Positions 1 through 28,361 of a stretch of 28,377 bases of DNA are shown piece by piece. The translations under genes were made by a program, and so were the position numbers. Source of the DNA: a virus. How positions within the stretch are numbered: position 1 is the first letter of the stretch; the number at the start of each line of letters is the position of its first letter. The notes under the pieces were generated by a model. It was not told where the DNA came from. It saw only the letters and a list, made by a program, of their open reading frames with translations, and searched no databases. The DNA lies in the IMG/VR virus record IMGVR_UViG_3300046683_000198, positions 1 through 28,377 of that record, one strand, 5' to 3'.

Positions 1-1632
1 ACGAACTACCGCTACCGGGGCTGCGACTACTCCACGACGGGCGGTGCTGCGGGTACGTCGCAGGTCTACTACGTGTGCCGCCGCGACCTGGTCGCGGGTA
101 CGTGGCAACTCATCGAGTTCCTGGCGTCCACGATGGTCGTGAACCGCGTATCCACCTACTACTTCGGTCCCGACAACGAGGCCGAACTGCTGGACGTGTG
201 TCACGTCGGGACGAAGGTCTACGTCCTGGTCCATCTGCTTCAGATTCCCGGCCAGAGCGAACACTGGGACGTGACCGTCTTCGACACGACCGCCTTCAAC
301 ACCCAGGTCACGACCACCACGCTCGCGGGTGCCCGCGTGAACAACAAGCAGCCGGGCCTGCTGTACGACGGCACGAACGTCGGCATCCTCTCGACCAACA
401 CCACGGGCGGCGCGTCCCGGCTGAAGCTGGGCAAGCTCGACAACACGACGTTGGCGTTCGTGTCCGACACCCTGTTCGACACGGCGGTGACGGTCAGCGC
501 ACCGAACACCGAGTTGTACGGCGGCTCACGGGCGACGAACGCCGGGCAGTCGAACACCTACGTCCTCGGCATCAACGACAGCACGCAGTCGCCCAGTCGC
601 TATCACAACTACACGTTCGATGGGACCGGCTTGGAAATCGTCAGCTCGCGGTGGGACAACCCGGACGCTGATGGCGCGTCCTACGTCACCTACGACACGA
701 CGAACGGTCGCTTCGTGTCGATGAAGGAGTCCGGCCTGGGCGCGATGTGGCGACATACCGACGCCTTCGCGTACGCGGCCAACACGAACAACGTGTGGTT
801 CGGCTACACGTTCTACGACTCGAACGCCACCGGGTCGCAGCACGAAACAGTGGTGTCCACGAAGGTCGTCGGCATCCAGTGGACCCGGAGGGCCTACGTC
901 AACGTCACCTGGCCGACGCCGCCCATCCTCGTCGGGACCGACGGTGTGGACAACACCCGGTGCTATGCGGTGCAGTCCGCCTCGTCCCCCGTGTCTCGGC
1001 TGCGGTCCGCCTGGCAGCTGCAAGCCACGGTCGCTAACCCCGGTACCGGTCTGACCCTGTCCGCGATGGCCGCGACCGCCGGGACCGACACGTTGGGAGC
1101 GTTCCCGTCGTCCAACCCCGGTCAGATAACCCATCAGGCGGGAGGCAGCGTCGCCCCGTTGCAGGGAACCGGCGACGGCTTCCTGCCGGTCGGCATGGTC
1201 GTGCCCTTCGCTGGGACCGTCGCTCCGGTCGGCTGGCTGATATGCGACGGTGCGGCAGTGAGCCGAACCGGGGCTACAGCGAACCTGTTCACGGTCTGCG
1301 GTATCGCGTTCGGTGCGGGCGATGGCTCCACCACTTTCAACATCCCAGACCTGAAGTCGCGTGTGCCGATGGGTGCCGGGACGTTCCGCGCCCGTGCGGC
1401 GAACGAGGGGATAGCCGAAGCATCACGTGACCCCGGTCACACACATGGCGTCGGTACCATCGCCATCGCCCAGTCGGGAGGGTCGTGGGCGAACGCGAAC
1501 ATCAGTGCGGGCGGCGCATTGAACGGCCAGGGCCACGCGCACGCGAACTCGGCGTTCTCAGGTGCTACCGGTGCCGGTGGCGGGACGGCCAACTTCCCAT
1601 CCCTGGGCATGAACTACATAATCAAGACGTAG
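1..1632 (+). CDS. Tail fibre / tail-collar domain protein (5' end outside window)
   Basis: The reading frame is open from base 1 and ends at a TAG at 1630, so 543 residues of a longer protein are visible. The N-terminal two thirds is Thr/Asn/Ser/Gly-rich and beta-strand-like, as in adhesive tail fibres. Around residues 397-460 (nt 1189-1380) sits a phage tail-collar-type domain: a PFAG.VAP.GWL.CDG motif, then FGAGDGSTTFNIPDLKSRVP. The His-rich C-terminus (HTHG, GHAHAN) and the closing LGMNYIIKT are typical of collar-domain short tail fibres, where His side chains can bind metal along a trimer axis. Role: host-surface recognition as part of the virion. The collar assignment is firm; the exact tail position is inferred. 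A GTG at 73 is in frame but has no convincing ribosome site, so the gene most likely starts before the window. Confidence 0.85.
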   Translation, partial: TNYRYRGCDYSTTGGAAGTSQVYYVCRRDLVAGTWQLIEFLASTMVVNRVSTYYFGPDNEAELLDVCHVGTKVYVLVHLLQIPGQSEHWDVTVFDTTAFNTQVTTTTLAGARVNNKQPGLLYDGTNVGILSTNTTGGASRLKLGKLDNTTLAFVSDTLFDTAVTVSAPNTELYGGSRATNAGQSNTYVLGINDSTQSPSRYHNYTFDGTGLEIVSSRWDNPDADGASYVTYDTTNGRFVSMKESGLGAMWRHTDAFAYAANTNNVWFGYTFYDSNATGSQHETVVSTKVVGIQWTRRAYVNVTWPTPPILVGTDGVDNTRCYAVQSASSPVSRLRSAWQLQATVANPGTGLTLSAMAATAGTDTLGAFPSSNPGQITHQAGGSVAPLQGTGDGFLPVGMVVPFAGTVAPVGWLICDGAAVSRTGATANLFTVCGIAFGAGDGSTTFNIPDLKSRVPMGAGTFRARAANEGIAEASRDPGHTHGVGTIAIAQSGGSWANANISAGGALNGQGHAHANSAFSGATGAGGGTANFPSLGMNYIIKT

Positions 1633-1894: not shown

Positions 1895-2554
1895 ATGCCG
1901 ATGCGCTACCGCGTGGCGGCGATGCCGAAGAAGGACGGAGCCAAGCCGCACTGGACCGACCCCAAGGAACTGAAGGACGCCACGAACGCCGTGGTCACTC
2001 GCCAGCGCAAGCACGTCGGCAAGGGTTTCACGATGCGCGAAGTCGCGAAGAACGAGAAGTGGGGACCGGAACGCACGCTGGAAGAAGTCCACACCCGGCT
2101 GCCCGGTCAGCTGGACAACCTGCGCCTTGGCGAGACGTGGGCGGTACGGGCGTTCAGCGACGACTTCACCGTCTGGACCCGCAAGGTGTCGGTCGAGCCT
2201 CCCGTGGTGCAGACACCGGGGACCGACGCCATCGACGCCATCTACGGGTGGCTGAACGGCAACTTCAAGGGCCGGTGGGAGAACTGGGGCATCTGCGTGT
2301 GCAAGCGCATCAGCGGCTCGTCCACCTGGTCGCAGCACGCCTACTGCAACGCCATCGACATCGGTGGCTCGACGGGCAACCTGGACGCCATCGCCAAGGC
2401 CGCGACCGCAGCAGCCAAGAGCGGCAACATCCCCTGCGACCAGGTCATCTGGAAGGGCTGGGAACACGTCCACGGCGGCAACGTGTACGACCACTACGAC
2501 CACGTGCATCTCACCGGCAAGCCGCAGCGGTCGGGGTGGCCGACGGCGTGTTGA
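1895..2554 (+). CDS. M15-like peptidoglycan peptidase (putative endolysin or tail lysin)
   Basis: 219 residues. The C-terminal half has the metal-ligand pattern of M15-type D-Ala-D-Ala peptidases: WSQHAYCNAIDIG (His148 and Asp155, spaced HxxxxxxD) and DHVHLTG (His203/His205). Members of this group are zinc enzymes that cut peptide bonds in peptidoglycan. The N-terminal 100 residues are charged (KRxGKGFTMRE region) and may be a binding or linker domain. There is no signal peptide, as is usual for phage lysins needing a holin, but no adjacent holin is visible. Position after a tail gene allows either a lysis or a virion-associated role. The gene starts 3 bases after the previous stop; ATG 1901 is an alternative start. 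Confidence 0.75.
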   Translation: MPMRYRVAAMPKKDGAKPHWTDPKELKDATNAVVTRQRKHVGKGFTMREVAKNEKWGPERTLEEVHTRLPGQLDNLRLGETWAVRAFSDDFTVWTRKVSVEPPVVQTPGTDAIDAIYGWLNGNFKGRWENWGICVCKRISGSSTWSQHAYCNAIDIGGSTGNLDAIAKAATAAAKSGNIPCDQVIWKGWEHVHGGNVYDHYDHVHLTGKPQRSGWPTAC

Positions 2555-2640
2555 CACAGAGAACGCGCAGGTCAGGGGCCGGTTGCGGGCGGTCGTTCGG
2601 CGGTGTACGGTCGGAAGTCCACGTGGGCCTATAAAGTCGA

Positions 2641-2667
2641 AACCCCCTGGCCGTCGACCAAGGGGTT
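2641..2667 (+). other. Leader hairpin upstream of the helicase gene
   Basis: In the 145-base gap between the peptidase and helicase genes, AACCCC and TGG pair with CCA and GGGGTT around a 7-base loop, with one C/A mismatch. There is no T-run after it, so a factor-independent terminator is unlikely. A TATAAA at 2630-2635 just before it could be a -10 box, but no good -35 is present. The hairpin would then lie in the helicase mRNA leader, ahead of a GCGAAAGGAG start-associated sequence. Confidence 0.4.
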
Positions 2668-2699
2668 CCGACAATCCTCGCGAAAGGAGATGCACTGCT

Positions 2700-4007
2700 G
2701 TGCGGCGAAATCATAGCAACGAAAGCGAAGTTGCGCTACTCGGTTCTCTGCTAACCCTTGAAGATGCAGTTGTCTTCTCTATCCCTAAGTTAGAAGTAGA
2801 TGTCTTTGCATCTGACTTCAATAGTAGGTTGTTCTCAGTTATCCAGAAGATGTACGAAGATGGGGAACGTATCGACCCTGTCCTTGTCCGCCGGAAGATG
2901 AAATGTAGGGCAGATGAACTCCATGACATCATGGAAGGCTGTCCGGTCCCGGCGAACTACCCGTTCTACCTGAAGCAGGTCCTGGACGACGCGCAGGCTC
3001 GCGTGACGGCCCAGGCGTTCACCGATGCGTCTTCCCTGGCCGCCGATGGCGAATCCCCCGCCGCGTGGGATGTCATCGAAGACATCCGGCAACGCCTCGG
3101 CGTGGACGATGCCGACGCGACGTTCGACGCGCAGGACCTGATGGGCAGGACGCTCGACATGGCCGATGCCTACGCGCAGGGGTCACGGGCGGTGCTGGGG
3201 GTGCCGACCGGCTGGCCGTCCGTGGACCGCATCATCGGGGGACTCATCCCCGGCAATCTGATAGTCGTCGCCGCCCGACCGGGCAAGGGTAAGTCGGCCC
3301 TTGCCGCGAACCTCCTGGTGAACGTGGCCCGCCAGGGGGAACGCACCGTGCTGGTGTCGTTGGAAATGACGGCAGCTGAAATCGGGATGCGACTCATCTG
3401 TCGGGCAGGTCAGCTGAACTGGGAATCACTGCGGGATGGGAAGGTCGAGGATGCTACCTCCCGCATCGTGACTGCCGCCGCTGGCCTGTCCGACCTCCCC
3501 TTGACGGTCATCGACCAGCCACGGGTCACGGTCGGGTACCTGCGGTCGGTGTGCCAGCAGCAGCGTCCGGCGGTGCTCATCGTGGACTACGTGCAGCTGA
3601 TGTCCGGTCCGGTGCGCAACAGCCGGGAACAGGAAGTGGCCGCGATAAGTCGGGGGTTGAAGCTCCTGGCGAAGGAAGAACAGGTCTGCGTCGTCGCGCT
3701 GGCCCAGCTGAACCGCAACGTGGAGATGCGCGGGGACGGTGCGTCGCCCCAGTTGTCGGACCTGCGGGATAGCGGGTCGCTGGAACAGGACCCGGACATC
3801 GTGATGTTCCTCGTCCCGCGCAACGGCACCCCGTACGCATCGGACCTGCACCTGGAAGTCGCGAAGAACCGCAACGGCATGGCGAAGGCAGCCGTCCTCC
3901 AATGGGACAAGCCGCACGTGTCGCTGACCGACACGATGCGCGTCCCGGCATCGAAGCTGGACCCTCTGGCTGTCCCCCCGGTTGCACAAGCCGCGCTGAC
4001 GGGATAG
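2700..4007 (+). CDS. dnaB: Replicative DNA helicase, DnaB family
   Basis: 435 residues from GTG 2700, chosen because GCGAAAGGAG lies 9 bases upstream and the protein then opens with the DnaB-like SNESEVALLGSLL. DnaB is the hexameric ATPase that unwinds DNA at replication forks. Visible parts: an N-terminal helical domain (about 1-90), Walker A ARPGKGKS (192-199), Walker B VLIVDY (Asp296), and later conserved segments SLEMTAAE, AQLNR and LSDLRDSGSLEQDPD. Length fits phage DnaB proteins. The first roughly 235 bases (2700-2935) are clearly AT-richer, with codons rare elsewhere (TTA, AGT, TCT, CTA), while the ATPase part is typical of the genome. This suggests the N-terminal domain came from another source. 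Confidence 0.93.
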   Translation: MRRNHSNESEVALLGSLLTLEDAVVFSIPKLEVDVFASDFNSRLFSVIQKMYEDGERIDPVLVRRKMKCRADELHDIMEGCPVPANYPFYLKQVLDDAQARVTAQAFTDASSLAADGESPAAWDVIEDIRQRLGVDDADATFDAQDLMGRTLDMADAYAQGSRAVLGVPTGWPSVDRIIGGLIPGNLIVVAARPGKGKSALAANLLVNVARQGERTVLVSLEMTAAEIGMRLICRAGQLNWESLRDGKVEDATSRIVTAAAGLSDLPLTVIDQPRVTVGYLRSVCQQQRPAVLIVDYVQLMSGPVRNSREQEVAAISRGLKLLAKEEQVCVVALAQLNRNVEMRGDGASPQLSDLRDSGSLEQDPDIVMFLVPRNGTPYASDLHLEVAKNRNGMAKAAVLQWDKPHVSLTDTMRVPASKLDPLAVPPVAQAALTG

Positions 4008-4361: not shown

Positions 4362-5213
4362 ATGGCACGACCGTTCCTGGGAGTGTGGCCCGACAATCCC
4401 ACCAAGGACACCTGGGACAAGCTGCGGGCGGCTATCCCTGGCAACCACATCCTCGGCTACCGGCCACGTGGCGGGTTCGGGGACTTCGATAGTCCGCTCA
4501 TCCGGGACATGGACGAAGCCAAGACCGTGCCCATCTATTCGACGAACCTGAACCCACGGGTCGGGGATGGGTCCAACAAGCTGCCCATCTCGCTGAAGGA
4601 CTGGGCAGGCGGCAGGTACGACGACAGCGTCCTGCGCCCCGGTGGGCAGCAGCTGATGGAGTTGTCCCCGTTCGTGCGCCGCATCATCGTCGAGATATGG
4701 TCCGAAGTGAACGTCGCCCATCCGCCGCCCGACGTGCAGCCGGAACCGCCCGACTGGTCGACCGCGAACTGGGAAGCGGCGTTCACGCACACCGTCGACC
4801 TCTGGCGGTCGATGGGCGTCCAGAAGAACGTGTGGCTGGGCTGTTCGGTGGCGGGGGTCCAGAAGGACTTCGGCGAGTACCACCCGCCCGGCGTGCTGTC
4901 CCATTCGAACTACGTCGGATTCGACTTCTACGCGAACACCACCAGCTTCAAGCTGATGAGCGAGCGGGCCAGCAAGATACGGGCGTTCGCGACGGCGAAC
5001 GGGCTGCCCATCATCTTCACGGAATCCGGGGTCGAGGAAACGGCGGACTACAAGACGTGGTTCGACGACGCCTACGCCTTCATCACGTCCGGCGGGGTCG
5101 CGGGGCAGTTCTACACCGACTACTCGTCGCGCGGGGACTTCCGCGTGGACCCAGGCCAGCCGATGCACTCGACGTTCGCGTCGTATGCGTCCCAGCCGGG
5201 GTGGAAACCCTGA
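4362..5213 (+). CDS. TIM-barrel glycoside hydrolase-like protein
   Basis: 283 residues. Alternating strands and helices and two well-placed glutamates suggest a (beta/alpha)8 glycosidase of the GH5/GH26/GH53 type: IIVEIWSEVNV (Glu111 or Glu115, candidate acid/base) at the end of one strand, and PIIFTESGVEE (Glu221, candidate nucleophile) late in the barrel. YVGFDFYAN (Asp188) adds a typical strand end. There is no signal peptide. Such enzymes hydrolyse polysaccharides; here a host capsule or cell-wall glycan is the likely substrate (inference). The exact GH family cannot be fixed by eye. Start ATG 4362 follows AGGA, 3 bases after the previous stop. Confidence 0.65.
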   Translation: MARPFLGVWPDNPTKDTWDKLRAAIPGNHILGYRPRGGFGDFDSPLIRDMDEAKTVPIYSTNLNPRVGDGSNKLPISLKDWAGGRYDDSVLRPGGQQLMELSPFVRRIIVEIWSEVNVAHPPPDVQPEPPDWSTANWEAAFTHTVDLWRSMGVQKNVWLGCSVAGVQKDFGEYHPPGVLSHSNYVGFDFYANTTSFKLMSERASKIRAFATANGLPIIFTESGVEETADYKTWFDDAYAFITSGGVAGQFYTDYSSRGDFRVDPGQPMHSTFASYASQPGWKP

Positions 5214-5242
5214 CTGAACTATGCGACCGAGGCTGACCCCGG

Positions 5243-5440
5243 ATGAGTGATGAGCCGCAGGACGATTACGACCGCCTGAAATCCCAGAACCAAGCACTCC
5301 AAGAGCGCATCAAGGAGCTGGAGGCGGGACTCGGTGACATCGGGCAGCTAGCCGGTCACCTAAGCGAACGCGGCGGCGCGTCTCTCGCTCGCATGGTTCG
5401 CCAACTCCTATCCCCCACCCAGGAGACTGACCCCGGATGA
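5243..5440 (+). CDS. Short coiled-coil protein, first of an overlapping small-gene chain
   Basis: 65 residues. Residues 8-30 (DYDRLKSQNQALQERIKELE) have heptad spacing of Leu/Ile and are predicted coiled coil. Much of this segment (SQNQALQER) is shared at DNA level with the gene at 5954. The C-terminus LLSPTQETDP is encoded by the repeated junction sequence that also carries the ribosome site of the next gene. The stop overlaps the next start as ATGA. Function unknown. Confidence 0.65.
   Translation: MSDEPQDDYDRLKSQNQALQERIKELEAGLGDIGQLAGHLSERGGASLARMVRQLLSPTQETDPG
5282..5307 (+). repeat. 26-bp direct repeat R1, copy 1 (copy 2 at 6014-6039)
   Basis: An identical 26-base segment, starting TCCCAGAACC and ending CAAGAGCG, occurs at 5282-5307 and 6014-6039. 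Both copies lie in the same reading frame near the start of coiled-coil genes and encode SQNQALQER. The bases on either side differ, so this is a duplicated module rather than a whole-gene duplication. Confidence 0.9.
5405..5434 (+). repeat. 30-bp junction repeat R2, copy 1 (copies at 6173-6202 and 6261-6277)
   Basis: A 30-base sequence containing CACCCAGGAGACTGACCCC is identical at 5405-5434 and 6173-6202; a 17-base part recurs at 6261-6277, and a diverged version (GAGG then CTGACCCCGGATGA) spans 5229-5246. Copy 1 and the diverged copy sit at gene boundaries and supply the ribosome site (AGGAG) for the next start. The other copies lie inside or at the end of the gene at 5954. Confidence 0.9.
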
Positions 5441-5694
5441 ACGAGGAAACCGTCGCGAACGTCTGTCGGTCGATGCGGTCTATCGCTGTTGGCCTGCGCG
5501 AAGAGGTCATGGACTACCCGGTGCCGATTCGGTGGACGCCGCCAGATGACGAAGTGTTTGCGGGCAACCTGGACTTCGGCGGCGGCGATATAACGCTGGC
5601 GGACCTGCTGGAAGTCTTCGCGCACCTTCTCGACGAGGGCCCGCTGAATCCTACCCCCCAACAGCCTATGAGTGAAGAGAGTGGAGAGAGATGA
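5437..5694 (+). CDS. Small acidic protein of unknown function
   Basis: 85 residues starting at ATG 5437, which overlaps the previous stop (ATGA). The ribosome site CAGGAG lies inside the upstream gene's last codons. Sequence is acidic, with a DITLADLLEVFAHLLDEG helix. The C-terminus SEESGER is encoded by a second type of repeated junction that recurs before 5954. No family recognised. Confidence 0.65.
   Translation: MNEETVANVCRSMRSIAVGLREEVMDYPVPIRWTPPDDEVFAGNLDFGGGDITLADLLEVFAHLLDEGPLNPTPQQPMSEESGER
5670..5687 (+). repeat. 18-bp junction repeat R3, copy 1 (copy 2 at 5936-5953)
   Basis: GAGTGAAGAGAGTGGAGA occurs at 5670-5687 and 5936-5953. Each copy encodes the end of one protein (SEESGE), provides the purine-rich ribosome site, and leads into ATGAGCGA, where stop and start overlap. 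It acts as a ready-made gene-to-gene linker. Confidence 0.9.
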
Positions 5695-5957
5695 GCGAGC
5701 GGTGGTTCGTCCAAGAAGTGCCTAAGGGCTGGAGCGACAAGAGTGGAGCCCCGGTGACGGCGTGGCGAGTGTCTCCTATCGGCTGGGAGGGCGATGAACA
5801 CAGGGCCAGGCTCATAGCCGCCGCGCCCGAGCTGCTCGACATGGTGGACCGCTTGGCCGGGCTCGCGCTCGAAGAGGGCTATGAGTCTGACCATGCCGAT
5901 GCGGTCGAACTACTGGATCGCGCCGCCCCATCCCCGAGTGAAGAGAGTGGAGAATGA
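5691..5957 (+). CDS. Small phage protein with ARLIAAAPELL motif
   Basis: 88 residues, overlapping both neighbours by four bases (ATGA). It carries EHRARLIAAAPELLDMVDRL, a short motif widely seen in small phage and prophage proteins of unknown function (from memory). The N-terminus (RWFVQEVPKGW) is compact and aromatic. The tail SPSEESGE repeats the ending of the previous protein because both are encoded by the same junction repeat. Role unknown. Confidence 0.7.
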   Translation: MSERWFVQEVPKGWSDKSGAPVTAWRVSPIGWEGDEHRARLIAAAPELLDMVDRLAGLALEEGYESDHADAVELLDRAAPSPSEESGE

Positions 5958-6298
5958 GCGACGAGCCATACAAGACTCTATTAGTGGACCGGGAAGCCTA
6001 CGACACCCTCCGGTCCCAGAACCAAGCACTCCAAGAGCGAGCGGAGAAGGCCGAGCGGTGGCTGCGGTTCATCGCCGACACGCAGCACCGACTTCTCGAT
6101 GCCTTCAAGCTCGAACTATCCGACGAGGAGTGGCGGGCCTTCGCTGAAGGCCTCGGCATCGAACCTGACGCCCTCCTATCCCCCACCCAGGAGACTGACC
6201 CCCCGCGAGACAAGGTGTTCGACCAAGCGCGGGTGCTGGCAGGGTTACCCCCAAAGCCTCCCCAGGAGACTGACCCCGATGCCGTGAACGGGGGATGA
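5954..6298 (+). CDS. Coiled-coil protein with internal remnants of gene-junction repeats
   Basis: 114 residues. It shares a 26-base segment (SQNQALQER) with the gene at 5243, then has a different helical core (FIADTQHRLLDAFKLEL). The C-terminal third contains LLSPTQETDP and PPQETDP, the translation of two copies of the junction repeat that elsewhere ends a gene and starts the next. This looks like a former junction read through into a longer protein, so the gene may be a fusion. Start overlaps the previous stop. Confidence 0.65.
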   Translation: MSDEPYKTLLVDREAYDTLRSQNQALQERAEKAERWLRFIADTQHRLLDAFKLELSDEEWRAFAEGLGIEPDALLSPTQETDPPRDKVFDQARVLAGLPPKPPQETDPDAVNGG

Positions 6299-6299
6299 C

Positions 6300-6437
6300 A
6301 TGGTCGGTGATGAAGACCTCGTCCGGGAAGCCCTGTACGAACTGCTGTCGATGCTGCCGTACAAGCACGAAACGCCCGATACCTTCCCACCGCTCCTGTC
6401 GTTCGAACGGCTGATGGCACGGCTGAAGTCGAAGTAG
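6300..6437 (+). CDS. Tiny protein (45 residues), unknown
   Basis: ATG 6300 lies one base after the preceding TGA (6296-6298), behind a GGGGG stretch, and the frame runs to TAG at 6435-6437. The product is mainly helical (EDLVREALYELLSMLP, then FERLMARLKSK), with codon use like its neighbours. It is the last of the coupled small-gene chain. Translation by re-initiation after the upstream stop is likely. Function unknown. Confidence 0.5.
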   Translation: MVGDEDLVREALYELLSMLPYKHETPDTFPPLLSFERLMARLKSK

Positions 6438-6451
6438 TACGGTCGGGAGCG

Positions 6452-7288
6452 ATGCGAAGGGGCGTCGCAGCGGCAATCGCCATTCCACTTGCTTTCGCAT
6501 CCCTCCGATTCTTGCCCGACGGCACCCCGGCCGCGACCGCCATCAGCGTCGCGCCGGTCATCGTCATCTTCATGGAGAACAAGGAACGGTCGACCATCGA
6601 AGGGTCACCGGACGCCACCTACCTGAAGTCCTTCGAGAACGCGGGCACGTCGTTCACCCACTACAACGCGGTCACCCACCCGTCGCTGCCGAACTACCTC
6701 GCCTTCGCGTCCGGCAGCACCAAGGGCAAACAGGGGACCGACACCATCACCGCGGGCGAGTTAGGCGGGAAGAACCTGTGGTCCCAGCTGCAAGGCAAGG
6801 GCGTGTCCTGGGGTGTCTACGAAGAGGCCATGCCGTCGACCTGCTACAAGGGCGTGTCGTCCGGCTTGTACGCGCTGAAGCACAACCCGGCGATGCCGTT
6901 CTCGAACATCGCGAGCAAGGCCGTCCGGTGCAACAAGGTCATGCCGTACACGTCCTTCGACGTGAACAACCTCCGGTCGGTCAGCTTCATCGCACCGGAC
7001 CTGTGCAACGACATGCACAACTGCTCCATCGCGACGGGTGACAACTGGCTGCAAGCGCGGGTCCCGGCGATGCTGGCGGCGGGAGCCATCGTCATCATCA
7101 CCTTCGACGAAGGGTCCACCGGGACGGGCGGCGGCGGGAACGTCTACACCGCGCTCGACGGACCGGGCATCCCCGGCACGACGAACACGGCGACCTTCAG
7201 TCACTACGGGTTGCTGGCGGCCCTGGAAGGGAGGTTCGGCCTGTCCCTTCTGGGGCAGGCCCAATCTGCCGCTAAGCTGCCGCTATGA
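6452..7288 (+). CDS. Secreted phosphoesterase / acid phosphatase-like protein (PF04185-like)
   Basis: 278 residues with an N-terminal signal-like segment (MRRG then AAAIAIPLAFASL). The mature part has the hallmarks of the phosphoesterase family that includes phospholipase C and bacterial acid phosphatases: VIVIFMENKE (Glu42/Asn43, a metal-binding ExN-like site), THPSLPNYLAFASG (Thr75-Gly88), APDLCNDMHNC, and ITFDEG. It also has several Cys that could form disulfides outside the cell. Reaction: metal-dependent phosphoester hydrolysis; the substrate is unknown, with envelope phospholipid or teichoic-type polymer possible. A signal peptide on a phage enzyme is unusual. Its stop overlaps the next start (ATGA). 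The ribosome site before ATG 6452 is close (GGGAG, 2 bases), so re-initiation from 6437 may help. Confidence 0.75.
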   Translation: MRRGVAAAIAIPLAFASLRFLPDGTPAATAISVAPVIVIFMENKERSTIEGSPDATYLKSFENAGTSFTHYNAVTHPSLPNYLAFASGSTKGKQGTDTITAGELGGKNLWSQLQGKGVSWGVYEEAMPSTCYKGVSSGLYALKHNPAMPFSNIASKAVRCNKVMPYTSFDVNNLRSVSFIAPDLCNDMHNCSIATGDNWLQARVPAMLAAGAIVIITFDEGSTGTGGGGNVYTALDGPGIPGTTNTATFSHYGLLAALEGRFGLSLLGQAQSAAKLPL

Positions 7289-8058
7289 GCATCCGGGGAG
7301 CGTTCTACTACCCCTGGTTCCCCGAAACCTGGACCGCTGGTGGCAAGCCGGTCCACGGCACCCCGTCGATGGGGAAGTACGCCTCGGACCTGGGCACGTT
7401 CCAGGTCCACGTCCAGATGATGCGCTACGCCCGCATCCAGGTCGGGTTCTTCTCTTGGTGGGGGCCGGACAGCCCGTACGACAAGCGTGTCGCCGACCTG
7501 CTGAAGGCCGCCGAGGGCACCCCGTTCAAGTGGGCCGCGTATCACGAACAGGAAGGCTTCGGGAACCCCTCGACGACCGAGTTGAAGCGGAACCTGGACT
7601 ACCTGAACCAGAACTACTTCTCGCATCCGAACTACCTGAAGCGCAACCTGAAACCGGTGGTGTTCGCCTACGGCGACGCGGCGGACGGTCCGGGGATGTG
7701 CAAACGGTGGGCAGACGCCAGCGGTGGCTCGGTCTACTACGGCCTGAAGGTGTTCAACGGGTACAAGATTGCGGCACCGCAGCCGAGCACCTGGTACCAG
7801 TACGCGCCGGACCAGGGGTACGTGGACTTCTCCCCGTGGTCGGTGTCGGTGTCCCCTGGCTTCTGGTTCGCGCCAGATTCCACGGCTCGGCTAGGCCGGG
7901 ACGCAACCCGCTTCGAAGCGGACGTGGAACGGATGGTGGCTGCGAATCCAGAATGGGAGTTGGTCACGACGTTCAACGAATGGGGCGAAGGGACCGCGGT
8001 CGAGCCGGAAGTGTCGCGGGGAACCGTCGAACTGGACATCCTGCGGCGTCACCGATAG
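7285..8058 (+). CDS. GH99-like endo-acting glycosidase
   Basis: 257 residues. It begins with GAFYYPWFPETW and ends with TFNEWGEGTAVEP, the two signatures of the GH99/GH71-like fold. The two glutamates Glu232 and Glu235 (EWGE) match the E-x-x-E spacing reported for the catalytic pair of GH99 endo-alpha-mannosidases and mannanases. HEQEG (88-90) and a mid-barrel FAYGD fit the same fold. It is shorter than typical GH99 enzymes (about 350 residues), so it is a compact variant. No signal peptide. Overlaps the phosphoesterase stop by four bases, implying coordinated production. Substrate is inferred to be a host mannan-type or other envelope glycan. Confidence 0.75.
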   Translation: MSIRGAFYYPWFPETWTAGGKPVHGTPSMGKYASDLGTFQVHVQMMRYARIQVGFFSWWGPDSPYDKRVADLLKAAEGTPFKWAAYHEQEGFGNPSTTELKRNLDYLNQNYFSHPNYLKRNLKPVVFAYGDAADGPGMCKRWADASGGSVYYGLKVFNGYKIAAPQPSTWYQYAPDQGYVDFSPWSVSVSPGFWFAPDSTARLGRDATRFEADVERMVAANPEWELVTTFNEWGEGTAVEPEVSRGTVELDILRRHR

Positions 8059-8066
8059 GAGGACAG

Positions 8067-8453
8067 ATGCCACTTGCAGGGGACCAGCTGTCGTTCAAGG
8101 AAGCCCTGGCACTGGGCAAGGTCGTGGGGTTCGGCAGTGGGCCGAAGCTCGTCACCGCCATCGCGGTGATGTGCGCGGAATCGGGCCGCTACGTCGGCGC
8201 GTGGCACGACAACGACAACGGCTCCACGGACCGGGGCCTGTTCCAGCTGAACACCATCCACGCGAACATCACGGACGCCGAGGCGTACGACCCGAAGCAG
8301 AACGCCCAGTTCGCCTACGAACTCAGCAAGCAGGGAACCGACTTCAGCCCGTGGGCCGCGTACAACAGCGGCGCGTACGAGAAGTTCCTGGACGACGTGC
8401 GGACGGTGAAGCAGGAGAAGACCTGGGAGTCGCGGGTCCGGCTCTGGCTGTGA
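8067..8453 (+). CDS. Lysozyme-like / lytic transglycosylase (SLT-type) protein
   Basis: 128 residues from ATG 8067, chosen because AGGAGG lies 4 bases upstream; the open frame extends much further upstream but only as a shadow of the previous gene. The lysozyme-like fold is shown by AIAVMCAESG (catalytic Glu38), GSTDRGLFQLN (53-62) and AAYNSGAYEKFLDD. These motifs match single-domain transglycosylase and lysozyme-like domains of phage that cleave the MurNAc-GlcNAc bond. There is no cell-wall-binding domain. Together with the M15-like protein at 1895 it gives the phage both glycan- and peptide-cleaving activities. Last gene of the left plus-strand block. Confidence 0.8.
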   Translation: MPLAGDQLSFKEALALGKVVGFGSGPKLVTAIAVMCAESGRYVGAWHDNDNGSTDRGLFQLNTIHANITDAEAYDPKQNAQFAYELSKQGTDFSPWAAYNSGAYEKFLDDVRTVKQEKTWESRVRLWL

Positions 8454-8470: not shown

Positions 8471-8503
8471 GAAGAAAGGGGGCCGGACCGAAGTCCGACC
8501 CCC
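8471..8503 (-). terminator. Rho-independent terminator of the minus-strand operon
   Basis: Read on the minus strand, GGGGG, one base, CGGAC-type stem, a TTCG tetraloop closed by C-G, and the complementary arm form a 10-pair stem with one mismatch, followed by TTTCTTC. It starts one base after the stop of the small gene at 8505. A UUCG tetraloop gives an unusually stable hairpin. On the plus strand the same hairpin (CGAA loop) could slow read-through from the transglycosylase gene. Confidence 0.8.
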
Positions 8504-11537: not shown

Positions 11538-11585
11538 CTGAAAGCACGCCACCGTCCCCTGTGAGGGACGATGGTCTGCCATCAG
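11538..11585 (-). repeat. Intergenic two-tier hairpin element (class with CTGA/TCAG outer arms)
   Basis: Outer CTGA and TCAG enclose AAGCAC and TCTGCCA internal-loop bases, then inner arms CCACCGTCCC and GGGACGATGG around a CTGTGA hexaloop. The copy at 15742 shares its flanks and internal-loop bases almost exactly while the inner stem differs. Lies between the genes at 11590 and 11009. Confidence 0.75.
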
Positions 11586-11589
11586 GTGG

Positions 11590-11901
11590 TCAGACGCGGA
11601 CCGGATAGCCAACCTGGGCCAGCCGGTCACGGGCGATGAGAACCTCGGCGTCCGTGAACAGGGTGCGGAACCTGGGGTCCAGCACCATGTATTCGACGGA
11701 CAGGTCGAGGCGTTGCATGTCGAACAGCCGGGTGAAGCCCGACTGCCACTGCCCTTCGGTCGTCAGGAGCCGCTTGGCGGCGTTGACCGCACCGTAGAGC
11801 GTGACCATCTCCATCCAGTACCGGGGTCGGTAGTTCAGCCCGATACATTCGGCGATGCCCGACCGCGTGACCTCGTTGAAGGTCACTTCGGCGTCGTCCA
11901 T
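11590..11901 (-). CDS. Conserved hypothetical protein with GFTRLF...RLDLSVE motif
   Basis: 103 residues from ATG 11901 (GCGGAAGGAGGTACCAC before it). Mostly helical: LNYRPRYWMEMVTLYGAV, AAKRLL, SGFTRLFDMQRLDLSVEYMV, then ARDRLAQVGY. The pattern resembles a small family of unknown function found in many actinobacteria, sometimes beside defence or restriction genes (recalled, not searched). If correct, this phage copy may be a host-derived antagonist or accessory. Function not established. Confidence 0.7.
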   Translation of the reverse strand: MDDAEVTFNEVTRSGIAECIGLNYRPRYWMEMVTLYGAVNAAKRLLTTEGQWQSGFTRLFDMQRLDLSVEYMVLDPRFRTLFTDAEVLIARDRLAQVGYPVRV

Positions 11902-11929
11902 GTGGTACCTCCTTCCGCGTTGGTATGCG

Positions 11930-11980
11930 GGTGCATACCCGGCCACCCCCCAACGTGAGTGGGGTGACCGGCTGTGCGCC
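11930..11980 (-). repeat. Intergenic hairpin element
   Basis: Inner arms CCGGCCACCCC and GGGGTGACCGG pair around a loop containing CGTGAG; weaker outer arms GGTGCA and TGCGCC enclose short internal loops. Sits between the genes at 11990 and 11590, followed by GCGGAAGGAGGT. Confidence 0.7.
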
Positions 11981-12733: not shown

Positions 12734-12952
12734 TCAGGCGGCGGCGAGCACGGTGTCCGGGTGGATGATGCCCAGGCCCATCGCGATGCCAACGGCATGT
12801 GCGGTGTTCCTGGCCCCGAGCTTCCCGCGCACGTAGCCCATGTGGACCTTCACCGTCTTGTGCGAGATGAACAGCTTGCGCCCGATTTCGGGCGCGCTGT
12901 ACCCCTGCGCGGCGAGGCAGAGGACATCCATCTGCCTATCGGTCAGTTCCAT
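12734..12952 (-). CDS. Standalone LuxR/GerE-type HTH DNA-binding protein
   Basis: 72 residues from ATG 12952 behind GCAAAGGAGGTCGCCAC. It is almost exactly one LuxR-type HTH: ELTDRQMDVLCLAAQGYS, APEIGRKLFISHKTVKVH (recognition helix), MGYVRGKLGARN. No receiver or ligand-binding domain is present, so activity may depend on its concentration or partners. It may regulate phage or host promoters. A second, diverged LuxR-type HTH is encoded at 25117 in the opposite operon. Confidence 0.88.
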   Translation of the reverse strand: MELTDRQMDVLCLAAQGYSAPEIGRKLFISHKTVKVHMGYVRGKLGARNTAHAVGIAMGLGIIHPDTVLAAA

Positions 12953-26993: not shown

Positions 26994-28361
26994 ATGGGAC
27001 AGGACCTGGCGCAAGCGACCTGGGCGGATAGGGTCCGTACACTCGACCAGCAGACGCTTGAAGACCTCTATCGGCTGACCACCCCTAGGCTGCCAAAGCC
27101 CTACGTACCTGAAGACCCATCCCCTGCACAGGCTGTCTTTCTCATCGCGCCGCAGCGGGAAGTGATGTACGGCGGGGCGGCGGGTGGTGGGAAGTCCATC
27201 GGGCTGCTGATGGCGGCGTTGCAGTACGTCGACACTCCCGGATATGACGCCATCCTGTTCCGACGGACCTTCCAGGACCTGAACCTGCCGGGTGCCCTGA
27301 TGGACGTGGCCCACAGCTGGCTGGCTCCCACGGATGCGAAGTGGGATGCGCTGGCGCACCGATGGACCTTCCCGTCGGGGGCCACGCTTAGCTTCGGCTA
27401 TCTCGCTACGTCCAACGACCGCTACAGGTATCAGAGTGCCGAGTTCCAGTTCGTCGGGTTCGATGAACTGACGCAGTTCGCCGAAGTGGACTACACGTAC
27501 CTGTTCTCGCGTCTGCGGCGGAAGGAAGGGGTGCAGGTGCCGCTCAGGATGCGGGCGGCGACCAACCCTGGGGGTATCGGGCACGAATGGGTGCGGGGAC
27601 GGTTCGTGGAATCGACGACCGAAGACACCGACCGGGCGTTCGTGCCCGCCAAGCTCGACGACAACCCGTTCCTGGACCGCGACGCCTACCTGCAATCGCT
27701 GATGGAACTGGACCCCATCACCCGCGCGCAGCTGCTGCGTGGGGACTGGGAAGCTCGGATGGTCGGGCCGATGTTCGCGGGCCACTGGTTCCAGCTGGTC
27801 GAGCAGTTCCCGCCCGTCACGCAGGACCCGCGCATCCGACCGCGCGTCGTCGAATCGGTGCGGTACTGGGACCTGGCAGCGACGGCGGTCGAAGTGGCGA
27901 AGCAGGACCCGGACTACACGGCCGGCTGTCTCATGGGGCGGACCGATGACAACCTATACGTCGTAGGGGATATACGGCGGATGCGGGACACCCCCAAGAC
28001 CATCGAGGCGTTGATGCGCCACACGGCGGACCTGGACCCGCCCGGTACGGTGGTCTGGGTGGAACGCGAACCCGGCTCTGCGGGGAAGGCGTACATCGAC
28101 CACCTGCGGGCCGACGTGTTGCCCGACGTGTCCATCTACGAAGACAAGGTGTCCGGCGACAAGGCGATGCGGGCCGCTCCCCTTGCGTCCCACGCCGAAG
28201 CGGGCTTCGTCAAGATGGTGCGAGGTCCCTGGAACCGCGCCTGGCTGGACGAACTGGAATCCTTCCCCATCGGCGCACACGACGACCAGGTCGACGCCAC
28301 GTCGGGTGCCTATCGCAAGCTCGCGCAATCGCAGGTGACGTACAGTCGCAGCCCGTTCTAG
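26994..28361 (+). CDS. terL: Terminase large subunit (packaging ATPase and nuclease)
   Basis: 455 residues, complete. Walker A YGGAAGGGKS (59-68), Walker B FQFVGFDE (151-158, Asp157/Glu158), motif III RAATNPGG, then the RNase-H-like nuclease with RYWDLAAT and DDQVDATSGAYR (Asp430, Asp431, Asp434). This enzyme docks at the portal, translocates DNA into the capsid and cuts it. Length and motif order are typical. The ribosome site before ATG 26994 is poor, so the dyad at 26971-26985 may affect initiation. First roughly 100 bases keep the AT-richer style of terS, then change to the genome norm. Confidence 0.95.
   Translation: MGQDLAQATWADRVRTLDQQTLEDLYRLTTPRLPKPYVPEDPSPAQAVFLIAPQREVMYGGAAGGGKSIGLLMAALQYVDTPGYDAILFRRTFQDLNLPGALMDVAHSWLAPTDAKWDALAHRWTFPSGATLSFGYLATSNDRYRYQSAEFQFVGFDELTQFAEVDYTYLFSRLRRKEGVQVPLRMRAATNPGGIGHEWVRGRFVESTTEDTDRAFVPAKLDDNPFLDRDAYLQSLMELDPITRAQLLRGDWEARMVGPMFAGHWFQLVEQFPPVTQDPRIRPRVVESVRYWDLAATAVEVAKQDPDYTAGCLMGRTDDNLYVVGDIRRMRDTPKTIEALMRHTADLDPPGTVVWVEREPGSAGKAYIDHLRADVLPDVSIYEDKVSGDKAMRAAPLASHAEAGFVKMVRGPWNRAWLDELESFPIGAHDDQVDATSGAYRKLAQSQVTYSRSPF

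Follow-up and report, generated by a model that had tools for sequence, protein, structure and literature searches.

The window analysed here is a viral contig of 28,377 nucleotides (IMG/VR record IMGVR_UViG_3300046683_000198, positions 1 to 28,377) that carries four enzyme genes within positions 4362-8453, all on the plus strand (Table 1). The preliminary description of this DNA had named these four ORFs and their enzyme families, and both the positions and the assignments were borne out, by Pfam for PF04185, PF16317 and SLT_3 and by a profile of relatives, an AF2 model and Foldseek for the GH26-type TIM barrel. It had also called the genes grouped, which is true of the phosphoesterase, GH99-like and SLT genes, as these are adjacent, but not of the GH26-type gene, which lies about 1.2 kb away from them, with several short ORFs in the gap. 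The overlap that it had noted between the phosphoesterase and GH99-like genes is real, the two being coupled through a shared ATGA.

Table 1. Positions of the enzyme genes and neighbouring features in the window.
Feature	Position	Strand	Basis
Tail collar/fibre gene, C-terminal part	1..1632	+	PF07484 4.6e-18; 100% match to companion contig G001
Probable endolysin, M15/LAS-type zinc peptidase	1895..2554	+	Weak Pfam M15/Extensin matches, 0.02-0.2; motif by eye
Divergent GH26-type glycosidase, 283 aa	4362..5213	+	Relatives' profile and model
Short ORFs between GH26 and phosphoesterase genes (5437-5694, 5691-5957, 5954-6298, 6300-6437)	5437..6437	+	
PF04185 phosphoesterase, acid phosphatase/phospholipase C type, 278 aa	6452..7288	+	Pfam
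GH99-like endo-alpha-mannosidase/mannanase, 257 aa	7285..8058	+	Pfam, PDB profile
ATGA start/stop overlap (4 nt) of phosphoesterase and GH99 genes	7285..7288	+	Sequence
SLT-type lysozyme/transglycosylase, 128 aa	8067..8453	+	Pfam
Strong hairpin, candidate terminator	8478..8503	.	T-tailed for minus strand
Terminase large subunit, start of structural genes, running on into G001	27165..28361	+	phrog_979 2.7e-110; 100% overlap

Both ends of the window overlap a companion contig of 32,360 bases, G001 (IMGVR_UViG_3300046473_000101; loci L176, L177 and L095), the left end over 2768 bases with one mismatch (99.96%) and the right end over 1306 bases with none (100%); together the two contigs would close to a genome of about 56.7 kb. 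G001 carries terminase, portal, capsid, tape-measure-like and tail genes on one strand, the last of them being the collar gene of the window, whose product has 1317 aa by start-scored gene call (the open frame on G001 has 1340 aa). After the collar gene come the M15-type peptidase gene, a DnaB helicase gene and then the enzyme set, and a hairpin parts the plus-strand set from convergent minus-strand genes, although the number of such hairpin sites in the region is not above that in shuffles. From the overlaps, this gene order and the hairpin, the enzyme set closes the structural-gene strand at its 3' end, and it is presumably expressed late. A search for RNA elements found none. The DnaB-type helicase gene (2364-4007) is thus placed within the structural-gene strand, between the endolysin-like and glycosidase genes. 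Two similar short coding stretches (5241-5400 and 5954-6100; MSDEP..YD.L.SQNQALQER) between the GH26-type and phosphoesterase genes form a local duplication. Two small LuxR-type HTH-like proteins were seen by eye on opposite strands of the window (12734-12952, minus; 25108-25344, plus), and adjoining the terminase gene on the companion contig is a gene for a 906-aa protein (L095:1462-4182) that by eye has a head-associated look and an ADP-ribosyltransferase-like part.

The GH26-type protein had no direct match in Pfam (0 families, PF02156 included), PHROG or the PDB. Genomes of Actinomycetota and Chloroflexota carry remote relatives of it, among them GH26 proteins that do match PF02156, and the profile of a 48-sequence alignment found solved GH26 enzymes in the PDB at 4e-90. 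The structure prediction and search proposed in the preliminary description returned a GH26-type fold: AF2 with the 48-row alignment, which is made up of distant relatives, gave a pLDDT of 84.7 and a pTM of 0.86 (single-sequence pLDDT only 37.7), and the best Foldseek match to the model was the GH26 lichenase CtLic26 (about 1e-14, TM 0.74-0.78). The presumed catalytic glutamates, E115 and E221, are kept in 47 of the 48 sequences. With a predicted (beta/alpha)8 fold and two presumed catalytic glutamates, as in CtLic26 and the mannanases, the product is, on this model, a divergent GH26-type TIM barrel; it differs from the known enzymes in having only about 15% identity, below Pfam GH26 detection, and since PF02156 was not matched directly it is named GH26-like rather than filed as GH26. 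Neither this protein nor the phosphoesterase had relatives in 50,697 phage records, or direct relatives in viral contigs by peptide pattern.

The phosphoesterase matches PF04185 at 5.3e-23 (82.2 bits, cutoff 23), and its profile aligns to the acid phosphatase AcpA (2d1g, 1e-12) and to phospholipases C. Residues E42, N43, S78, D219, E220 and H251 are invariant across 12 homologues and supply the EN pair, the S/T nucleophile and the D-D/E metal site of the family, together with the downstream histidine, as in AcpA and phospholipase C 8k3g. Unlike these, the window enzyme is small and single-domain with a shorter middle, is phage-encoded and overlaps a GH99 gene. The signal peptide reported in the preliminary description corresponds to an N-terminus (MRRGVAAAIAIPLAFASL...) that is signal-peptide-like as judged by eye only, and the enzyme is probably exported by a Sec-type signal. 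No signal peptide is visible in the GH26-type, GH99-like or SLT proteins.

The product of the overlapping downstream gene matches PF16317 (GH99) at 9.4e-15 (55 bits, cutoff 33), and its profile (A1) found GH99 structures in the PDB at 1.1e-21, with an alignment to 4acy. The catalytic pair E232/E235 (NEWGEG) is present in 81 of 81 family sequences and is the ExxE of GH99, not the DxxE of GH71 (PMC11025385, PMC12394665). The tryptophan at residue 189, which has been tied to mannose preference at the -2 subsite and is present in most bacterial GH99 (PMC11025385), is presumably represented by W59, as mapped through alignments. These features, including the EW[H/G]E glutamate pair (here EWGE), are shared with BtGH99 (4acy), BxGH99 (5lyr) and human MANEA. 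The window protein differs from these in its length (about 257 aa, where the Pfam model has 341 positions), in being phage-encoded within a family whose members may adjoin or be fused to phosphoesterases, and in the third motif, H[I/L]EPY, which is replaced by YHEQEG in the window and YYExEG in the family. Because this motif is missing, and exceptions to it have been reported in other GH99 clades (PMC11025385), the protein is filed as GH99-like and its substrate may differ. On the GH99 tree it forms a long branch (1.43). A -1 frameshift fusing the phosphoesterase to GH99 was considered and rejected, the GH99 frame being open only 9 nt upstream of the overlap. In an archaeal guttavirus, Aeropyrum pernix ovoid virus 1, orf10 (L005:3070-3924) weakly resembles GH99 (29% over half, E 7e-5); a mangrove-virus "GH99" mentioned in the literature is an isomerase label.

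The last gene of the set encodes a protein with SLT_3 (PF18896, 1.5e-17, 64 bits, cutoff 27) and SLT (6.9e-5) matches, in which the CAES, GLFQ and AYNSG motifs, the catalytic glutamate motif included, were recognised by eye. Catalytic residues are present in all four enzymes. The mechanical ORF is longer (7038-8453), and the gene takes up its 3' part, its likely start being the ATG of position 8067, preceded by AGGAGG; the gene product had no direct relatives in viral contigs by peptide pattern. The putative lysis genes of the window comprise this SLT gene and the M15-type peptidase gene (SxHxxxNAIDI ... HYDHVHL, by eye), along with candidate small membrane proteins, also by eye.

Relatives of the GH99-like protein were found at 10 viral and 80 bacterial loci, the latter mostly in Chloroflexota and Actinomycetota. 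With profiles built in this work, a phosphoesterase domain was found in the same ORF at 29/90 GH99-like loci and 0/55 GH26-like control loci (Fisher p about 2e-7), and in the same ORF or within 1.5 kb at 41/90 and 1/55 (p about 9e-10), p values that are inflated by kinship among the loci; the controls come from the same phyla with flanks of about 1.5 kb, from which distant fused domains could escape. Some of the metallophosphoesterase matches counted as near are multi-piece and may reflect low-complexity linkers, so we rely on the same-ORF figure, which includes one match (L020) lacking the GNH motif. As the phosphoesterase profiles were derived from the GH99 loci themselves, a Pfam scan serves as an independent count; it found PF00149 (Metallophos) in 16 and PF04185 in 9 of 89 GH99-like ORFs. 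On the GH99 tree PF04185 requires 13 changes and PF00149 requires 11, of which well-supported branches force at least 7 and at least 3, respectively, and both domain orders occur. The association recurs with two unrelated phosphoesterase superfamilies and is not due to chance, and the use of two unrelated folds for the same partner suggests that the phosphate cut, rather than one particular protein, is what is selected. In the reciprocal direction only 2 of the 30 best PF04185 loci in Chloroflexota had a GH99 nearby (28 did not), and the association is therefore claimed from the GH99 side only. The bacterial versions of these domains belong to large secreted proteins, many of which also have binding domains, CBM96 or others. 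CBM96 itself was found in 19 of the 89 GH99-like ORFs (L015-L094), and in some of them a phosphoesterase is present too; these are secreted enzymes of modular build. In the literature searched, no paper paired GH99 with a phosphoesterase or metallophosphoesterase.

The pair is also present in six other viral lineages (seven with the window), as GH99-PF00149 fusions (L002, L003/L006, L007 and L014), as a GH99-PF04185 fusion (L008/L010) and, in L013, as overlapping PF04185 and GH99 genes laid out as in the window; L009 has a GH99-like gene alone, and L011 and L012 are truncated at contig ends. Most of the viral fusions carry secretion-signal-like N-termini, and capsid, portal or terminase-like genes lie close to several of the pairs. 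The main support for a role in envelope lysis comes from two of these phages, in which the module adjoins a peptidoglycan hydrolase gene, for an SLT protein (6.6e-5) in L007 and an M23 endopeptidase (1.2e-24) in L014. Shortly after the fusion in L003 lies a gene for a CAP-domain protein with a signal-like N-terminus (11538-11972; PF00188 1.5e-7).

The preliminary description had placed the target of the enzymes in the lipoglycans of an actinobacterial envelope, which the head genes of the phage do not support. In a search that covered two phyla, relatives of its portal protein were found in 21/201 Chloroflexota genomes (best 40% identity) and 0/326 Actinomycetota genomes, and a capsid relative lay beside the portal relative in four of five fetched Chloroflexota regions, at up to 48.6% identity. 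With portal relatives in the one phylum and none in the other, the host is probably not an actinobacterium and is most likely a Chloroflexota bacterium. No single phylum accounts for the pairing, because the capsid relative of another phage that carries it (L002) is actinobacterial and not from Chloroflexota; actinobacterial lipoglycans are thus conceivable targets for some carriers but unsupported for the window phage.

We give an even chance to the reading that the four genes form an accessory lysis or envelope-clearing set, in which peptidoglycan hydrolases act with a phosphoesterase-endomannosidase pair directed at a phosphorylated surface glycan or glycophospholipid. In such a scheme the phosphoesterase would probably be exported through its Sec-type signal, and the GH26-type, GH99-like and SLT enzymes would be set free at lysis along with the endolysin. 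The SLT lysozyme and the M15-type peptidase would cut peptidoglycan, the GH99-like enzyme would cut an internal alpha-glycosidic bond, probably alpha-mannosidic, and its partner would cut a phosphomono- or diester, either in that polymer or lipid-linked glycan or beside it. Together the pair would open or detach the phosphorylated surface glycan or glycophospholipid layer of a host that is most likely a Chloroflexota bacterium. The earlier proposal of an addition to peptidoglycan lysis survives in this form, as it fits the recurrent pair and its peptidoglycan-hydrolase neighbours in two other phages, although it has lost its actinobacterial target. Several observations count against a lysis set: the phosphoesterase family is common and mostly unpaired, the bacterial domain architectures would suit exopolysaccharide breakdown equally, several viral copies lie among head genes and not at a lysis cassette, the GH26-type gene is not adjacent, and one phage has the GH99-like gene without a phosphoesterase.

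Some of the same observations would suit host-derived secreted enzymes for polysaccharide use or phosphate scavenging, which during infection would draw sugar and phosphate out of extracellular polymers as a form of auxiliary metabolism; this we consider possible but clearly less probable. The relatives in bacteria are modular enzymes that are secreted and in many cases carry CBM96, and Chloroflexota widely have relatives of PF04185 (108/301 genomes), but the window set sits with structural and lysis genes, its GH26-type and GH99-like members are without visible export signals, and in L007 and L014 the module keeps the company of a lysozyme or M23 gene. It is unlikely that the genes are passengers from hosts with no fixed phage role, the pairing belonging to bacterial proteins only: the long branch of the window GH99 and the lack of phage relatives for the phosphoesterase and GH26-like proteins would fit, but the catalytic residues are all kept and the pair is present in seven viral lineages with differing architectures. 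Less likely still are depolymerases, borne on the virion or serving progeny release, that would clear the polysaccharide of capsules or biofilms outside the cell and separately from lysis, since the placement of viral pairs among head genes (L002, L003 and L008) and the action of GH26 and GH99 families on polysaccharides are offset by the absence of any recognised tail- or head-binding domain in the members and by secretion-signal-like N-termini, needless for virion parts, on the phosphoesterase and most viral fusions.

What is understood of phage lysis concerns chiefly peptidoglycan, outer membranes and mycolates. In mycobacteriophages, LysA and LysB provide a precedent for a second, non-peptidoglycan envelope enzyme beside the peptidoglycan hydrolase, LysB being a mycolylarabinogalactan esterase. 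The accessory lysis set would resemble this system in that idea only, by analogy, as LysB is of another fold and the window host is probably a Chloroflexota bacterium. A bolder proposal, which we advance tentatively and hold to be rather doubtful, is that the GH99-like enzyme and phosphoesterase form a module that recurs, having been put together several times with unrelated phosphoesterases, and that dissolves in two steps a phosphate-bearing alpha-glycan or glycophospholipid new to the envelopes of Chloroflexota and related bacteria; for phages this would be a lysis step beyond peptidoglycan and a functional counterpart of LysB. The recurrence of the pairing in unrelated phages and bacteria points to a shared phosphate-bearing glycan target, and it suggests a testable function for the GH99-like family, which numbered about 90 loci in this analysis. 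Where poorly cultured bacteria have phages with such a recurring phosphoesterase-endomannosidase pair, a new envelope polymer would be indicated, and the pair would supply the enzymes for finding it.
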